From Planctomycetota bacterium (GTDB lineage Bacteria > Planctomycetota > Phycisphaerae > FEN-1346), in the NCBI GenBank assembly GCA_026386995.1, contig JAPLMO010000190.1, positions 1 to 5,246 of the forward strand: 5,246 bases of DNA, in the 5' to 3' direction. Positions 1-5,246 of this stretch are shown piece after piece; position 1 is the stretch's first letter, and every line of letters begins with the position of its first letter. The notes under the pieces were generated by a model that was not told the DNA's origin, made no database searches, and saw nothing but the letters and a program-made list of their open reading frames with translations. A program made the position numbers and the translations under genes.

Positions 1-1101
1 CGGCTGCGCCAGTTCGACGCGCGGCGGAACGATGCGCTCCCGCGGATGCGACACGAGCGGCCGCGGCTCGTGCAGATCCATGTCGCCGGTCTTCGCAAGG
101 AGCACCTGCGTGGCCCCCTGCCCGTCCATCAGGAGGATGCCTTGCGGACCCGCCACGAGGAAGCAATCTTCGGAGAACGGATACGGGTCGCGCCAGGCGT
201 TCCGGGAGTTGACCGGCCGGGCCATTGCCAGCGCGTCGGGGCCGCCGTTGGGATCCACGATCGTCACAGGCCCGGCGTGCTCCTTCATGCCATGGCCCGG
301 CGAGAAAATGGCGACCACCTTGTCGGTCCCGGGAATCGGCTTGGCGTCAAGCATGACGATGCCGGGGTGAAAGTTGCCGTAGTAAACCGTCTGCCCCGTG
401 CCGTCCGGGTTGGAGGTCCACAGGTGATGGTAGTGCACCTGGCTGCGGTCAACGTACTCCCACCGCATATACAGGATGCGGCCGTCGGGCAGAACCCAGG
501 GCGTGTTGTCGTGATCGTTGTTGCTGGAGATGGGGCGGATGTTCTGCCCGTCCGGCCCGCAGCGGTACAGGATCGCCACCTGCGTCAGCCAGCAGTTCAC
601 CCATCGGCGACAGCGGCTGGAGCCAAAGACGATGTCGCCGTCGGGCAGGTACACCGGCTCGATGTCGTCGTACTGGCCGTCGGTCAACTGCTTGAGGCCC
701 GAGCCGTCGGCGTTGATCTCGTAGAGATGGTACGGGTCGGTCCCGCCCTTTCGGTACGAGAAGAGGATCTTCTTGCCATCGTAGTGAACGACCGGGTCGC
801 GGACGCCGCCCTTGGGGTCGTCCAGCAGGACGGTGACCTGGCGCGAGCGGAGGTTCATGCGGCAGAGGCGCGCACCCTCGGTGTAGGCCTTTCGGTTGGC
901 GTCGGGGCCGAAGTAACTGAAGTTGGCGTACCAGTGGCCGTCGCTGCCCATGCGTCGGGCGGCGTAGACGATGTCGTCGACGCCGGCCATCGGCCCCGCG
1001 AGGGCCTTCTCAAGAAGCCCCGGCGGAGGCGGGGCGCTCTCGGCCTGTGCGGCGGCCGCGGCAAAGAGAACCAGAAGCCCAGAGATAGCCGGAAACCGCA
1101 T
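1..1101 (-). CDS. HzsA-related PD40/TolB-like beta-propeller protein, exported (C-terminus off the window)
   Basis: This reading frame is open from an ATG at 1101 to the left edge, giving 367 residues with no stop, so the C-terminus is missing. A Shine-Dalgarno-like GAGAGGGG lies 7 bases upstream of the ATG. Residues 1-20 form a Sec signal peptide: MRFP, a hydrophobic run, then AQA before ES. The mature part contains TolB/PD40 propeller blades: DGKKILFSYRKGG (about 108-120), LYEINADGSGLKQLTDG (about 126-142), then DDIEPVYLPDGDIVFGSSRC (145-164) and TPWVLPDGRILYMRWEY (200-216). The Y-DDIEP-YLPDG-IVF-S-RC pattern is what I know from the Planctomycetota family annotated as hydrazine synthase alpha-subunit-like. 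No CXXCH is visible; in true HzsA the haems are bound further on, so haem content cannot be judged here. Cysteines at about 80, 164, 170, 181 and 313 could be structural. It lies 173 bases downstream of a di-heme cytochrome gene on the same strand, suggesting a shared periplasmic redox role. Family membership is fairly sure; the reaction is unknown. Confidence 0.85.
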   Translation of the reverse strand, partial: MRFPAISGLLVLFAAAAAQAESAPPPPGLLEKALAGPMAGVDDIVYAARRMGSDGHWYANFSYFGPDANRKAYTEGARLCRMNLRSRQVTVLLDDPKGGVRDPVVHYDGKKILFSYRKGGTDPYHLYEINADGSGLKQLTDGQYDDIEPVYLPDGDIVFGSSRCRRWVNCWLTQVAILYRCGPDGQNIRPISSNNDHDNTPWVLPDGRILYMRWEYVDRSQVHYHHLWTSNPDGTGQTVYYGNFHPGIVMLDAKPIPGTDKVVAIFSPGHGMKEHAGPVTIVDPNGGPDALAMARPVNSRNAWRDPYPFSEDCFLVAGPQGILLMDGQGATQVLLAKTGDMDLHEPRPLVSHPRERIVPPRVELAQP

Positions 1102-1108
1102 CACGCAA

Positions 1109-1116
1109 CCCCTCTC
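1109..1116 (-). promoter_or_regulatory. Ribosome binding site of the HzsA-related gene
   Basis: On the minus strand this reads GAGAGGGG and ends 7 bases before the ATG at 1101. It supports that start, which also places a clean signal peptide at the N-terminus. Confidence 0.6.
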
Positions 1117-1142
1117 GCCACCAAACAACCGCCGCGGCGTTT

Positions 1143-1270
1143 AGAAACTGTTTCAGAACCGCGTGTCGCGCGGTGGGCAGTTTTGCCCACCGCGCATGCA
1201 AACCAGTCTTTGCGCGGCGGGCAAGACTGCCCGCCGCGCGATCATGCGATGAAAACCGGTTGTGAAACAG
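1143..1270 (-). terminator. Possible terminator of the cytochrome gene (outer stem plus short T tract)
   Basis: Read on the minus strand, the outer stem of the composite element starts 4 bases after the stop codon at 1275. Its distal arm, ending CTGAAACAG, is followed at once by TTTCT. Without the inserted hairpin pair this would look like a weak Rho-independent terminator. The T tract is short and the enclosed element long, so termination is only a possibility. Confidence 0.3.
1148..1270. repeat. Composite palindromic element, copy 1 (outer stem enclosing two 12-bp hairpins)
   Basis: The outer arms CTGTTTCAGAACC (1148-1160) and GGTTGTGAAACAG (1258-1270) pair over 12 of 13 positions. Inside are two perfect 12-bp hairpins. 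The first has arms at 1168-1179 (GCGCGGTGGGCA) and 1184-1195 with loop GTTT. The second has arms at 1212-1223 (GCGCGGCGGGCA) and 1228-1239 with loop AGAC. Sixteen bases (1196-1211) separate them. The loops read GTTT and, on the other strand, GTCT, so the second hairpin is an inverted copy of the first, as in REP doublets (REPINs). The same pair in the same order recurs at 3815-3886. The element begins 4 bases after the stop codon of the upstream cytochrome gene and fills most of the gap before the HzsA-related gene. It could be a mobile palindromic element, a terminator or an mRNA-end structure; the sequence does not decide. Confidence 0.9.
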
Positions 1271-1274
1271 CCGA

Positions 1275-3239
1275 TTACAGCGACAGCAGGTACACGATCA
1301 GGTCAGACAGTTCCTGTTTCGTCAGGTCCTTGGTCGAACCGTGGCGGCCCTGCTCGTTGAACTTCGTGAACACTTCCTCCAGCGTGGCCGCCTCACCCAT
1401 GTGCAGGTACGGGCCGATTCGATACAACTCGATCAGTGTAGGGGTGAGGAAATCGCCTCGCTGGTCGAGCGGCATGCGGGTGCCCACGTCGTACATCTTC
1501 TGGTCCGAGTGCATCGGGCCCACGTGGCAGACGATGCACCCCGCCTTGCCGCCCTCGAAGATCTTCTTGCCGCGCTGGGCCGCCTCTGACAGTTCGCCGT
1601 TGGGCCCCACGTAGGGGTTCCGCAGGGGCTGGAGGCTCGTCAGATAGGCATTGACTGCCGCGATCTCGTTGGGCTGCGGCTCGTGGAATTGGATGAACTT
1701 GAAGCCCGCCGCAACCGCGACCTCCATGTTCGAGCGGACGCCATGCGACATCACCGGCGACCTCTTATTCACCTGGAGGAGCGACTTGGCATTCTTCGGG
1801 TTGCCGATGCCGTCGTTCAGGAGGTCCCAGTTCAGGCCGTCGACTCGGGCGTCCTCAGGATGGCACGTCGCGCAGGAAAGCCAGTGCTGGAAGCAGTAGG
1901 CGGCATCGTGGAAGATCCGTTCGCCACGACGCGCGATGTTGTTCTCGCCGTCCGGTCCAATGCGGATCGTCTTGGTGGCCTTGCCGGTCTGCGAATCTGC
2001 CAGAATGACCGTGCCGGAGAAGTACATCGCGACGGCGACGTTCTTGCCGTCGGGCGCCAGGTCGATGCCCCTGGGCCCCTTGCCGTCCAGCGGGGTCCTA
2101 GTCAGCAAGCCTGCCGCATAGAGCGCCGCCAGGTCGTTGACGAGCATCTTGCGCTTCTCGGGGTCCTTTTTGATTTCGGCCCACGTGTCGGGCACCGCCC
2201 TGGCGGACTTGTCGGCGGCCGGCGCCTCGCCCTTCAGGAGCGCGTGCAGCGTCCCCGTGTCCACCCGCGCGATCTGGTGCACGCCGGCAATCGTCACCCA
2301 CATCGTCTTGCCGTCCTTGGCAAGCACAAGGCCCCACGGATCGGCCGCGCCCTCGCTCAGGCGGTCCAGGAGGAGCGTCGAGTCGAGCGTCTTCGCGCCG
2401 AGGTCGATAATGCTGAATGCGTTCGTGTTGACCCAGCCGCGTTCCAGTTGCGTCGTCGGCAAGGTCGTCCGTCCGACCGTATGAAGGGCGTACGCCCACT
2501 TGCCATCGGGCGACACGGCCACGCCGCGCACGCTCGTCGAGCCGCCCGGCAACCGCACGTCAGCCACGGACTTCATGGCCGCCAGGTCGATCAGGCTGAC
2601 CACGGCCGAGTTCATCGGGTCGTCCCCCCGGCCGGCCGGCAACAGGTTCCCGACCACGGCCATCGACTCATCGGGCGTGAGTACGACAAAGTACGGCTCG
2701 CGCGGCACGCGGACGCGGCCCTTCTCTTTGCCGGTGGCCAGGTCGATCACGGAGACGTCGTGCGTCACGGTGTTCGGGACGACGAGCAGGCCGCCCTTGG
2801 CTGCAACGGCAACGCCCATGGGCCTGAGGCCCGTGGGCAGGTGCCGCAGAACCTTGCCGGCGGCGGCGTCGATCTCGGCCACGGCGCCGGCGTTCCACTC
2901 GGCGCAGTAGATCTTCGTGCCGTCGGGCGACCATGCCACGCCGGCCGGTTTGCCGCTGACGGGGACCTCGCGGGCGACCTTTCCGGCGGCCACGTCGATA
3001 ATCACCACAACGGCGCGAGTCTTGTCGGAGACCGCCAGCCACTTGCCGTCGGGCGAGTAGTGCAGGTCCAGCGGCGAACTCGGCATCCCCGCAGCCCCTG
3101 CCGCAGGGGCCACCGCAGGCGCAGCCGCGGGGGCCGCCGCAGGCGCAGCCGCGGGCGATTCCCTGACATCGGCCAGAAACGTTCCAAGAAGAAGTCCGCC
3201 GACCCCCAGTGCCACGCTGATGGCCAATAACCGTTTCAT
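1275..3239 (-). CDS. YVTN-like beta-propeller protein with C-terminal di-heme cytochrome c domain, exported
   Basis: The product is 654 residues. I chose the ATG at 3239 because GAGGAG lies 5 bases upstream and MKRLLAIS starts a signal or anchor helix; an in-frame ATG at 3275 would add 12 residues with no such support. Order: hydrophobic segment (about 5-23), an Ala/Pro-rich linker (29-51), then propeller repeats such as YSPDGKWLAVSD (61-72), WSPDGTKIYCAEW (103-115), VSPDGKWAYALH (242-253) and LAPDGKNVAVAMY (394-406). The C-terminus has two class I haem c sites, CATCH (456-460) and CIVCH (568-572). A PYLHMGEAATLEEVF segment (610-624) resembles the C-terminal signature of MauG/CcpA-type di-heme proteins. 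That family usually has HDG where this has HMG, so Met614 is a candidate axial ligand. It is expected to be periplasmic, possibly membrane-tethered, with electron-transfer or oxidoreductase activity; the substrate is unknown. It is separated from cysA by about 675 bases and is probably its own transcription unit with the HzsA-related gene downstream. The domain calls are confident, the function is not. Confidence 0.93.
   Translation of the reverse strand: MKRLLAISVALGVGGLLLGTFLADVRESPAAAPAAAPAAAPAVAPAAGAAGMPSSPLDLHYSPDGKWLAVSDKTRAVVVIIDVAAGKVAREVPVSGKPAGVAWSPDGTKIYCAEWNAGAVAEIDAAAGKVLRHLPTGLRPMGVAVAAKGGLLVVPNTVTHDVSVIDLATGKEKGRVRVPREPYFVVLTPDESMAVVGNLLPAGRGDDPMNSAVVSLIDLAAMKSVADVRLPGGSTSVRGVAVSPDGKWAYALHTVGRTTLPTTQLERGWVNTNAFSIIDLGAKTLDSTLLLDRLSEGAADPWGLVLAKDGKTMWVTIAGVHQIARVDTGTLHALLKGEAPAADKSARAVPDTWAEIKKDPEKRKMLVNDLAALYAAGLLTRTPLDGKGPRGIDLAPDGKNVAVAMYFSGTVILADSQTGKATKTIRIGPDGENNIARRGERIFHDAAYCFQHWLSCATCHPEDARVDGLNWDLLNDGIGNPKNAKSLLQVNKRSPVMSHGVRSNMEVAVAAGFKFIQFHEPQPNEIAAVNAYLTSLQPLRNPYVGPNGELSEAAQRGKKIFEGGKAGCIVCHVGPMHSDQKMYDVGTRMPLDQRGDFLTPTLIELYRIGPYLHMGEAATLEEVFTKFNEQGRHGSTKDLTKQELSDLIVYLLSL
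3113..3155 (-). repeat. Tandem repeat encoding the Ala/Pro linker
   Basis: The 19-mer CCGCAGGCGCAGCCGCGGG (plus strand) occurs perfectly at 3113-3131 and 3137-3155, a period of 24 bases or 8 codons. It encodes part of the Ala/Pro-rich linker between the N-terminal hydrophobic segment and the propeller of the cytochrome. More degenerate Ala/Pro sequence continues to about 3090. In-frame slippage here would change linker length without breaking the gene. Confidence 0.8.
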
Positions 3240-3244
3240 CACGG

Positions 3245-3250
3245 CTCCTC
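3245..3250 (-). promoter_or_regulatory. Ribosome binding site deciding the cytochrome start
   Basis: On the minus strand this reads GAGGAG, 5 bases before the ATG at 3239. It selects this start over the in-frame ATG at 3275. Confidence 0.75.
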
Positions 3251-3252
3251 GA

Positions 3253-3286
3253 TTTGTGGCGGCGCCCCCGGCCACAAAAGGCCGGG
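3253..3286 (-). other. Two mutually exclusive leader hairpins upstream of the cytochrome RBS
   Basis: Two perfect stems share bases. One pairs 3253-3260 (TTTGTGGC) with 3271-3278 (GCCACAAA) around a 10-base loop. The other pairs 3267-3273 (CCCGGCC) with 3280-3286 (GGCCGGG) around a 6-base loop. Both use 3271-3273, so only one can form at a time. The first ends 2 bases from the Shine-Dalgarno sequence. I recognise no riboswitch family, and GC-rich leaders form such stems by chance. Confidence 0.35.
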
Positions 3287-3343
3287 CCCGCGCGCCTGGA
3301 CCCTATTTCCTCGCGTCCGCTGAGGCCAATGCTTTGGCGTCCG

Positions 3344-3354
3344 ATTCTATCATA
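3344..3354 (-). promoter_or_regulatory. Weak candidate -10 region for the cytochrome gene
   Basis: In an otherwise GC-rich leader, the minus strand reads TATGATAGAAT, giving overlapping -10-like hexamers TATGAT and TAGAAT about 105 bases before the start codon. I see no convincing -35 box at 16-18 bases, so this is only a candidate. Confidence 0.2.
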
Positions 3355-3423
3355 ATCCGCAGCCCGATGTTATAGACCTGCCGCCACGCCGGATAACTGA
3401 GGCGGAAACTCGACCGGCTGCGC

Positions 3424-3571
3424 GCCGGCGTACGTGTTTAGCGTGCAAGGCAAGACCTGTCATTCTGAGCGAGCGAGAGCGAGCGAAGAATCTCGGCCGT
3501 CCGAACGGCGAGATTCTTCGGCCCCGTAAACGGGGCCTCAGAATGACAGCGCTAAACACAAACGCGCCGGC
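3424..3571. repeat. Nested palindromic repeat with TGTCATTCTGAG arms
   Basis: The core runs 3457-3549. Its perfect 13-bp arms are CTGTCATTCTGAG (3457-3469) and CTCAGAATGACAG (3537-3549). Inside are a long hairpin and a short one. The long hairpin pairs 3484-3494 (CGAAGAATCTC) with 3510-3520 and has a 5-bp top stem at 3496-3500 and 3505-3509. The short hairpin pairs 3521-3526 (GCCCCG) with 3531-3536. A 10-mer GAGCGAGCGA is duplicated in tandem at 3467-3486. The core sits inside another inverted repeat, GTGTTTAGCG (3434-3443) with CGCTAAACAC (3550-3559), then GCCGGCG (3424-3430) with CGCCGGC (3565-3571). From general knowledge, TGTCATTCTGAG...GAAGAATCT repeats are dispersed in many environmental bacterial genomes; I assign it to that type without a search. 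It is probably a non-autonomous mobile palindrome. Confidence 0.85.
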
Positions 3572-3732
3572 CGACCGGACCACGACCCGCCCCGCACCAC
3601 GCACAGATGCAGCGCTGAACCGAGGTCTCCAGATTGAACACGGCACGGGCCGAAGAGGGCCGCAAGATAGTACTGCAACAACGCTCCCTTACGCGGCGGG
3701 TGCGGAGGGCCTGTTGCCGAATTGCCGTTCAT
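3572..3732. other. Intergenic stretch with no recognised feature
   Basis: I see no gene with a credible start and ribosome binding site here, no tRNA-like fold and no further copy of the neighbouring repeats. The short open frames on both strands run into the repeats on either side and encode no recognisable domain. Confidence 0.5.
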
Positions 3733-3758
3733 GTAGGGTGGTCGCCACGGCGACCACC
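3733..3758 (+). repeat. Single REP-like hairpin with GTAG head
   Basis: GTAG (3733-3736) is followed directly by a perfect 9-bp stem, GGTGGTCGC (3737-3745) with GCGACCACC (3750-3758), loop CACG. A GTAG or GGAG tetranucleotide 5' of a palindrome is the hallmark of REP sequences mobilised by RAYT/TnpA-REP transposases (established knowledge). A weaker 6-bp stem, GCCGTT (3724-3729) with AACGGC (3775-3780), encloses it. No transposase gene is present in the window. Confidence 0.6.
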
Positions 3759-3771
3759 ATTTTCACGCGAG

Positions 3772-3914
3772 AAAAACGGCTATAGCAGTTCACGCTTGAC
3801 TGTAGCGAGTGTGTGCGCGGTGGGCAGTCTTGCCCACCGCGCCGCCTCTCGATATTCCGCGCGGCGGGCAGGACTGCCCGCCGCGCGAGGGGCTACAAGC
3901 AAGCGTGAACTGCT
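3772..3914 (-). terminator. Possible terminator of the cysWA unit (outer stem plus T5)
   Basis: Read on the minus strand, the 15-bp outer stem of composite copy 2 begins directly after the cysA stop codon. Seven bases beyond its distal arm comes TTTTT (3772-3776). This resembles a Rho-independent terminator whose loop has been expanded by the hairpin pair. The T run is short and displaced, so confidence is low. Confidence 0.3.
3784..3914. repeat. Composite palindromic element, copy 2 (outer stem enclosing two 12-bp hairpins)
   Basis: Perfect 15-bp outer arms AGCAGTTCACGCTTG (3784-3798) and CAAGCGTGAACTGCT (3900-3914) continue, after a 2x2 internal loop, into a 6-bp inner stem, TGTAGC (3801-3806) with GCTACA (3892-3897). 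Inside are two perfect 12-bp hairpins. The first has arms 3815-3826 (GCGCGGTGGGCA) and 3831-3842, loop GTCT. The second has arms 3859-3870 (GCGCGGCGGGCA) and 3875-3886, loop GGAC. The hairpin arms are identical to copy 1, in the same order and with the same 16-base spacing, but the outer arms and the spacer are unrelated to copy 1. The right arm ends at the base next to the cysA stop codon. The predicted fold is a three-way junction. Confidence 0.92.
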
Positions 3915-4982
3915 CTAAATCGAGTAATCCTCGACGAAGATCTTCACCTGCCGCGGGGTCACGAAGACGCGGCTGCCGGGCGCCAGGTTCAGGGCGGCGC
4001 GGCGGTCTTGCGAGGTCTCGACCTTCACGTCTTCGCCCGAGTCGGCCACGACATGGATGCGCACCTGCGGGCCGGCGGAGTGGATGTGCTTGACGGTGGC
4101 CGCAAACGACGACGGCCCGACGGGCGCCAGGTCGATGTCGAGGTCGTGCGGCCGGATGAACGCCCGGGCGGGCACGGCGTCGCCCTTGCGGGCATAGTCG
4201 ACCTGGATGGGGCCGAAACTCGCCTTCCCCTCTCCCACGCGGCCGTGGAAGAGGTTCACGCTCCCGAGGAAACTCATCACGAATTCCGTCTCGGGGTTGT
4301 GGAACACGTCGTCGGGCGTGCCGACCTGCTCGATGCGGCCCTCGTTCATGACGACGACGCGGTCGGCCACCTCCAGCGCCTCTTCCTGGTCGTGCGTGAC
4401 GAAGACGCTCGTCACGTGCAGTTCATCGTGGAGGCGCCGCAGCCAGATGCGGAGTTCCTTGCGGACCTTGGCGTCGAGCGCCCCGAACGGTTCATCCAGG
4501 AGGAGCACCTCGGGCTCGACCGCCAGCGCCCGCACCAGAGCCACGCGCTGGCACTGACCGCCCGAGAGTTGCGACGGGTACCGGTCGGCCAGCGAGTGAA
4601 GTTGCACTAGTTTCAGGAGGCCCATGACGCGCTCGCGGATCTGTTCTTCGGCGAGCCGCTGAGGGCGCGGCCGCACCCGCAGGCCGAACGCCACGTTCTC
4701 AAACACCGTCATGTGCCGGAAAAGGGCGTAATGCTGGAACACAAATCCCACGCGCCGCTCGCCCACGCGGCGGGAGGCCACGTCCTCGGTGTGAAAGAGG
4801 ATCGGGCCGCTGCCCGCATCCGGCGCCTCCAGACCCGAGATGATCCTTAGGAGCGTGGTCTTGCCCGAACCGGACGGGCCCAGCAGGGCCACCAGTTCGC
4901 CCTTCGGCACGCCAAGGCTTACGTCTCGCAGGGCCGTAAACTTGCCGAAGGTCTTCGAGATGTTGCGGACTTCGATGCTCAT
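3915..4982 (-). CDS. cysA: Sulfate/thiosulfate ABC transporter ATP-binding protein CysA
   Basis: This is a complete 355-residue ATPase, a usual length for CysA. It should sit on the cytoplasmic face of the CysTW permease and hydrolyse ATP to drive sulfate or thiosulfate import. Visible motifs are Walker [10 protein letters not shown] (35-43), Q-loop Gln83, the ABC signature LSGGQ (139-143), Walker B VLLLDEP (159-165), D-loop GALD (167-170) and H-loop His197 in [11 protein letters not shown]. The stretch [18 protein letters not shown] (175-192) is typical of CysA rather than of PotA or MalK. Residues about 240-355 form the regulatory TOBE-like tail, including FIRPHDLDI (275-283). The signature is followed by Cys144, where Arg or Gln is more usual; this is unlikely to matter. 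The ATG at 4982 overlaps the upstream cysW stop as ATGA, indicating translational coupling, and GGAGGTG lies 7 bases upstream. The TAG stop directly abuts a palindromic repeat. The nearest alternative is another CUT1-like ATPase, but the CysW neighbour makes CysA very likely. Confidence 0.96.
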
Positions 4983-5246
4983 GCGGACTCACCTCCCGGG
5001 GCCCCTCGCTCCTGGGCCGCCAGTTCGCGCCGGAACTTCCAGGCCACGATGTTCTTTGCCGCCAGCGTCACCAGGGCCAGCATCGCCAGGACCGACGCCA
5101 CGGCGAATGCGGCCGTAAAGTTGTACTCGTTATAAAGGATTTCCACGTGCAGCGGCACGGTGTTGGTCTGGCCGCGGATGTGCCCCGAGACGACCGAGAC
5201 GGCGCCGAACTCGCCCATCGCGCGGGCGTTACAGAGGATGACGCCG
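4979..5246 (-). CDS. cysW: Sulfate/thiosulfate ABC transporter permease CysW, C-terminal part
   Basis: The last 88 residues and the stop are visible; the start lies beyond the right edge. The segment begins [20 protein letters not shown], then [20 protein letters not shown], which is the conserved region just after the EAA loop in CysW proteins. A final membrane helix follows (about [20 protein letters not shown]), then a short charged cytoplasmic tail. The protein is one of the two inner-membrane subunits forming the sulfate/thiosulfate channel. It precedes cysA with a 4-base ATGA overlap, the usual cysTWA arrangement, so cysT is expected further right. An internal Met at 5218 should not be taken as a start, because the conserved sequence continues upstream of it to the edge. 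Confidence 0.95.
4990..4996 (-). promoter_or_regulatory. Ribosome binding site of cysA, inside the cysW coding end
   Basis: On the minus strand this reads GGAGGTG, 7 bases before the cysA ATG. It is embedded in the last codons of cysW, consistent with coupled translation through the ATGA overlap. Confidence 0.75.

Follow-up and report, generated by a model that had tools for sequence, protein, structure and literature searches.

Nezha, RUP and Correia/NEMIS are examples of bacterial miniature inverted-repeat transposable elements (MITEs) related to the insertion sequences (IS) IS630 or IS5. The same names appear in a 2013 study of repetitive extragenic palindromic (REP) sequences (PMC3733652), whose available text describes REP dimers nested in palindromes, GTAG-15 of Anabaena variabilis and CGTC-1 of Halothiobacillus neapolitanus, as well as an excess of heterodimers without an obvious explanation, for which protection from SbcCD was suggested. 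IS elements can also insert into REPs, according to the available part of PMC1525189. Here we analysed a stretch of 5,246 nucleotides from a Planctomycetota bacterium (assembly GCA_026386995.1, contig JAPLMO010000190.1, positions 1 to 5,246 of the forward strand; hereafter the window), in which two elements carry the same pair of hairpins within two different outer stems. Both elements are very probably non-autonomous MITEs with a REP-like hairpin heterodimer as their interior, and the outer stems would be the ends, or terminal inverted repeats (TIRs), of two transposon families unrelated to each other. This reading is carried by features evident in the DNA sequences: TIRs with target duplications, the existence of related copies, the occurrence of the same ends on elements that bear a transposase, a near-constant geometry and an excess of hairpins of two types in one pair.

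The window pairs are comparable to three kinds of described elements. As in the REP dimers of PMC3733652, to the extent of its available text, hairpins form dimers, often between two partners that differ a little, within a longer outer palindrome; that text calls the outer palindromes targets, whereas here they appear to be TIRs with target duplications, and one module is found in several palindromes. IS630- and IS5-related bacterial MITEs are likewise short, non-coding and intergenic, with the TIRs of autonomous elements and short target duplications, but here the interior is a REP-like heterodimer common to MITEs with unrelated TIRs. Bacterial interspersed mosaic elements (BIMEs) and REP doublets forming hairpins (REPINs) also pair short palindromes of two subtypes in inverted orientation across a short spacer and reach high copy numbers; in contrast, the pairs described here often lie within the TIRs of DDE transposons at a near-constant distance, have perfect stems and, in the window, no abutting GTAG. 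For BIMEs we follow the definition in the available text of PMC2817692. Palindrome-nested REP dimers and the heterodimer excess have been known since 2013, and what is new is that the outer palindromes are TIRs and that one hairpin module is common to several of them. Among open-licence papers, searched by title and the start of the abstract, we found no published account of one hairpin module common to MITEs with unrelated ends.

The hairpin pair and its outer stems

Each element contains a T-type hairpin (GCGCGGTGGGCA...TGCCCACCGCGC) followed by a C-type hairpin (GCGCGGCGGGCA...TGCCCGCCGCGC), spaced 44 bp from start to start in both. The 12-base arms are the same in elements 1 and 2, and differences are confined to the 4-base loops, which bears out the original prediction, made from the window alone, that identical arms recur in the same order and that the pair behaves as one unit of fixed polarity. 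It had overlooked that the T and C hairpins of one pair are inverted copies of one another, loops included, with T:A in one and C:G in the other at one shared stem position. The prediction located both elements, and only a small extension to the limits in Table 1 was needed, as set by the target duplications. Its claim of two real yet dissimilar outer stems also stood: folded as single-stranded DNA, the regions of elements 1 and 2 scored z = -9.78 and z = -11.97, respectively, against 200 dinucleotide shuffles, and the outer flanks of both copies were better than 200 of 200 mononucleotide shuffles.

Comparison of 48 distinct pairs from the fetched loci and the window gave 35 C+T pairs, 9 with one hybrid hairpin, 4 C+C pairs and no T+T pair. 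When the window and the loci fetched with C/T-biased patterns were removed, 28 of the 32 non-hybrid pairs were C+T (binomial p = 1.9e-5, under an assumed null of 0.5 with equal odds of each type). The loops were inverted with at most one mismatch in 46 of the 48 pairs. A 5-base core was common to both hairpins in 39 of 48 and differed by one base in 8, an agreement that is partly built in, since one partner's core was already specified in the search patterns. Hairpins with a GGGCA core were found at 58 places in the Planctomycetota draft genome G001 (JAPLML01), 10 in another, G002 (JAUVZF01), and 1 in genome G003; those with a GGGTC core at 254, 80 and 128 places, respectively. Inverted dimers of short palindromes are thus present at high copy, as in REPs, BIMEs and REPINs. 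A GTAG-type tetranucleotide (GTAG or GGAG) abutting the hairpins is absent from both window pairs, and the GTAG of element 2 lies inside the TIR, several bases away from the hairpin. The window gave no Rfam match at gathering score. Y1_Tnp (PF01797), a domain that covers REP-associated tyrosine transposases (RAYTs) and other IS200/IS605-type transposases, matched in 6 of 6 genomes searched.

Families of ends in related genomes

Six stretches with the doublet were found in genome contigs, four from G001, one from G002 and one from Methylomonas, which belongs to a distant phylum; a viral contig collection gave none. In three of the four G001 stretches the doublet lies inside an outer stem (GAAGCTGTTTCAGAACCG / CGGTTCTGAAACAGCTTC), and in the fourth this stem is missing. 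The Methylomonas doublet (L005, 5711-5771) has the same T and C cores, is GTAG-tagged and shows no TIR, and we classed it as a classical REP doublet and put it aside. Among the 48 pairs, two were dropped for flanks that were too short, and an outer inverted repeat was detected at p <= 0.01 against mononucleotide shuffles in 21 of the remaining 46. Since loci fetched by TIR pattern inflate outer stems, we recounted with loci fetched by hairpin pattern alone, and the stem was significant in 14 of 34 pairs. The nested-stem proposal had been made on the understanding that complementary flanks might prove absent from other copies or no more frequent than chance; outer stems recur far above shuffled flanks, though many copies have none. 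The significant pair at L003 lacks any known TIR, and this match may be unrelated.

Five types of TIR, designated A, B, D1, D2 and E, enclose such hairpin pairs. Among the 160 hairpin clusters with at least 40 bases of flank on each side, the window included, 28 are flanked by two ends of the same family (E 7, A 6, D1 6, D2 5, B 4). The distances from the two ends to the hairpins are nearly constant within each family: 23/34 in 5 of 6 copies of A, 29/31-32 in 4 of 4 of B, 19/26 in 5 of 6 of D1, 26/28 in 5 of 5 of D2 and 34/38 in 7 of 7 of E. The window elements match the distances of their own families. Applied to 2056 random 75-mers, strict end typing gave a background of 34 hits (20 of A, 12 of B and 2 of E), some of which may be true copies because the 75-mers were drawn from the same loci. 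A looser typing (<=3 mismatches) was discarded, as it gave 101 chance B hits in 1285 random 75-mers. D1 and D2 ends resemble each other, which indicates that part of the TIR diversity is divergence. The end pattern of family E matched in 15 of 61 genomes, outside G001 nearly always at 2 mismatches. In three family E copies of G001 (L239, L240 and L242; ends GTCCGTCACAATTG) the hairpins abut directly, with a gap of 0.

Element 1 belongs to family A. It is as long as the family A copy in L002 (G001), 131 bp, and shares 77.6% identity with it over 134 aligned columns. The 14-base core of the family A end matches 21 times in G001 and twice in G002, the latter with one mismatch each. End searches covered 101 genomes around G001, and the 18-base end was found at up to 2 mismatches in 34 of them, led by G006 (19), G001 (18) and G057 (14); in many genomes the match is single and in apparently coding sequence. 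At L026 (G001), a pair of family A ends about 0.9 kb apart encloses frames that match PF13340 and PF01609 and are predicted to encode an IS4/IS5-type transposase; the frames are broken by frameshift, and a third frame that was scanned had no profile match. TTA or TAA flanks 19 of 19 distinct family A ends in G006. Family A is predicted to have IS5-like ends and a TNA-type target, TTA in the window. With TTA on both sides and the length of the L002 copy, element 1 appears to be a miniature relative of an IS5-like element. At L125 (G031, 1385-1518), family A-like ends enclose another long palindrome (GTTTCGCCGCAGGAGCGCAGCTCC..), which suggests that interiors of the family A chassis include other palindromes as well.

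Element 2 shares 69.7% identity over 152 aligned columns with the family B copy in L185. The family B end (AGCAGTTCACGNTTGNNTGTAGC, <=2 mismatches) was found in 6 of the 101 genomes, chiefly G018 (21) and G002 (18). In G018 this end, which shows single-base differences from that of the window, terminates a repeated element whose edge encodes the C-terminus of DDE_3 (PF13358), and we take this transposase, from its domain match, to be of the IS630 / Tc1-mariner type. All 21 of 21 distinct family B ends in G018 lie in a YTAG context. IS630 prefers TA in CTAG, a preference for which our literature search found no supporting paper. Family B is predicted to have IS630-like ends and to insert at TA within YTAG. 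Duplications of TTA and TA are weak evidence alone, and the flanks of the G006 (A) and G018 (B) ends fit the same targets. Copies that qualify as members of a MITE family were found for A in G001 and for B in G002.

Possible routes into unrelated transposon ends

Two explanations had been offered in the original prediction, and neither fits. According to one, the outer stem belongs to a single structured element, RNA or DNA, whose pairing is maintained as the sequence changes. Each stem is indeed self-complementary and the two in the window share no sequence, as this would have it, but the stems of the relatives form discrete conserved families at near-constant distances rather than a continuum, and Rfam holds no matching family. 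The discrete families, together with the target duplications and the A and B ends on transposase-bearing elements, argue for a set of TIRs and leave a drifting stem hardly credible. According to the other, the pair inserted into palindromes that already existed, which would make the hairpin pair itself mobile, as a REP dimer or a REPIN moved by a RAYT. Hairpins are found far more often than copies bounded by TIRs, at 254 and 58 places in G001 for the two cores, and 103 of the 160 clusters have no recognised end; Y1_Tnp is also present in each genome searched. Both would suit a mobile pair, although the domain is not confined to RAYTs. Such insertion would not account for the near-constant distance from TIR to hairpin in each family, the window hairpins have no abutting GTAG or GGAG, and homologous host-gene loci, inspected by eye, show no such palindrome directly past the stop codon. 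We therefore regard a self-mobile pair as quite improbable.

The interior might instead have arisen once in an ancestral MITE, with TIRs that diverged into seeming families and no exchange of chassis. The likeness of D1 and D2 agrees with this, and copies with mixed ends, which would speak for exchange, might be assembly errors. Nevertheless, we consider common descent without exchange rather unlikely, since the transposases of A and B belong to different Pfam families (PF13340/PF01609 versus PF13358), and since family B pairs in G002 and G003 have GGGTC cores and gaps of 31-32 between hairpins, while the window family B pair has a GGGCA core and a gap of 20, as in family A. Other loci also combine ends and interiors. 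In L039 (G002) both B ends surround GTAC-centred hairpins. L104 (G004) has one recognisable A end and no second end, with C and T hairpins of a GGCCT-type core as judged by eye. L079 and L263 each have a D1 end plus a B end. The left half of L017 is E-type (98% over 57 bases) and its right half A-type (95-96% over 106-109 bases), and the halves overlap in a hybrid hairpin. As the sources are draft assemblies, the mixed copies L079, L263 and L017 are suggestive only.

Several observations weigh against reading the elements as MITEs that share a module. The transposase evidence was drawn from other genomes, G001 for A and G018 for B, and not from that of the window, and the IS630-like element of G018 was seen at its edge only, never whole. 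Under a harsher control, with the flanks of other pairs as background, just 8 of 46 pairs stood out at 0.05, in part because pairs within a TIR family also match one another. Apart from those with two ends of one family, the 160 clusters comprise 2 whose ends are mixed, 27 in which a single end is recognised and 103 in which neither is; the last two groups indicate that hairpins of this kind are also present beyond the named MITEs, or within decayed or unnamed ones. All source assemblies but one are draft-like, with many contigs, and the mixed copies may be misassembled.

If the elements are MITEs, transposases encoded elsewhere would move them in trans, and recombination or gene conversion at the hairpins would carry the pair from one transposon chassis to another. 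The C/T difference may be retained because SbcCD-type processing would cut or delete any long palindrome that is perfect; this proposed selection is an idea taken from the available text of PMC3733652. It is only tentatively that we regard the C/T pair as a module that hitch-hikes on unrelated mini-transposons through recombination at the hairpins, with the C/T mismatch selected to save the palindrome.

Genomic setting and significance

Table 1. Positions of the two elements, their parts and the adjacent genes in the window
Feature	Position	Strand	Basis
PD40 repeat protein gene	1-1101	minus	Open reading frame list and profile search
Left target duplication TTA, element 1	1141-1143	.	Flank comparison
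Element 1 (131 bp), putative MITE of family A; no own reading frame recognised	1144-1274	+	Sequence, end comparison
Left TIR, element 1 (GAAACTGTTTCAGAACCG)	1144-1161	+	Sequence, end matches
T-type hairpin, element 1	1168-1195	.	Repeat analysis
C-type hairpin, element 1	1212-1239	.	Repeat analysis
Right TIR, element 1 (CGGTTGTGAAACAGCCGA)	1257-1274	-	Sequence, end matches
Right target duplication TTA, element 1; doubles as the TAA stop codon of the cytochrome c / beta-propeller gene (minus strand)	1275-1277	.	
Cytochrome c / beta-propeller protein gene	about 1275-3240	minus	Open reading frame list and profile search
Left target duplication TA, element 2	3781-3782	.	Flank comparison
Element 2, putative family B MITE, 133 bp	3783-3915	+	Sequence, end comparison
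Left TIR, element 2 (TAGCAGTTCACGCTTGACTGTAGC)	3783-3806	+	Repeats, end matches, outer-stem test
T-type hairpin, element 2	3815-3842	.	Repeat analysis
C-type hairpin, element 2	3859-3886	.	Repeat analysis
Right TIR, element 2 (GCTACAAGCAAGCGTGAACTGCTC)	3892-3915	-	Repeats, end matches, outer-stem test
Right target duplication TA, element 2; joined to the element's final base it makes up the TAG stop codon of the cysA-like gene (minus strand)	3916-3917	.	
CysA-like ATP-binding cassette (ABC) ATPase gene	3915-4982	minus	Open reading frame list and profile search

Elements 1 and 2 lie directly 3' of the stop codons of the cytochrome gene and the cysA-like gene, respectively, and when the flanks are joined without the elements both genes keep unchanged stop codons, TAA and TAG. 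Homologues of the cytochrome gene (39-70% identity) were inspected by eye at 12 loci, and no family A element was seen in the stretch of up to 260 bases past the stop; at one of these loci, L094, a REP-like hairpin follows the stop, again by eye. The cysA homologue in L290 (G003, 68%) has no element right after its stop codon, and a B-like end sequence lies about 300 bases beyond it. Stop-codon targeting as a general rule was rejected: stop codons hold just 10 of 107 family A/B ends elsewhere, in a simple and crude test of codon usage, with small training sets, that may undercount, and insertion into stop codons was accordingly dropped as a defining property. The hairpins just past the stop codons may end or protect transcripts.

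Two further features were observed in the window. A GTAG-flanked hairpin at 3733-3762 (TGTAGGGTGGTCGCC...GGCGACCACC) resembles a classical REP. A third miniature transposon, type C (3430-3563), has a different interior palindrome (TGTCATTCTGAG...CTCAGAATGACA) and exact 8-bp target duplications (GCGCCGGC) at 3422-3429 and 3564-3571. Its 15-base end, at <=2 mismatches, matches 297 times in G001 and 196 times in G002. In 10 of 14 end pairs examined (L042-L061 and L022) an 8-base duplication with up to 2 mismatches was present, and in 6 of the 14 the joined site is a GCGGY..RCCGC hairpin; in L022 a type C copy lies, by eye, within a hairpin of a family A element. Type C copies are often inside palindromes, indicating that insertion into existing palindromes does occur here, via type C.

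The available text of PMC3733652 left open in 2013 why dimers lie within long palindromes and why their partners are often non-identical, and TIRs that enclose a shared C/T module offer an answer to this question. The elements also provide a natural system for the study of how MITEs acquire and exchange their interiors and of how long palindromes survive in bacterial chromosomes.

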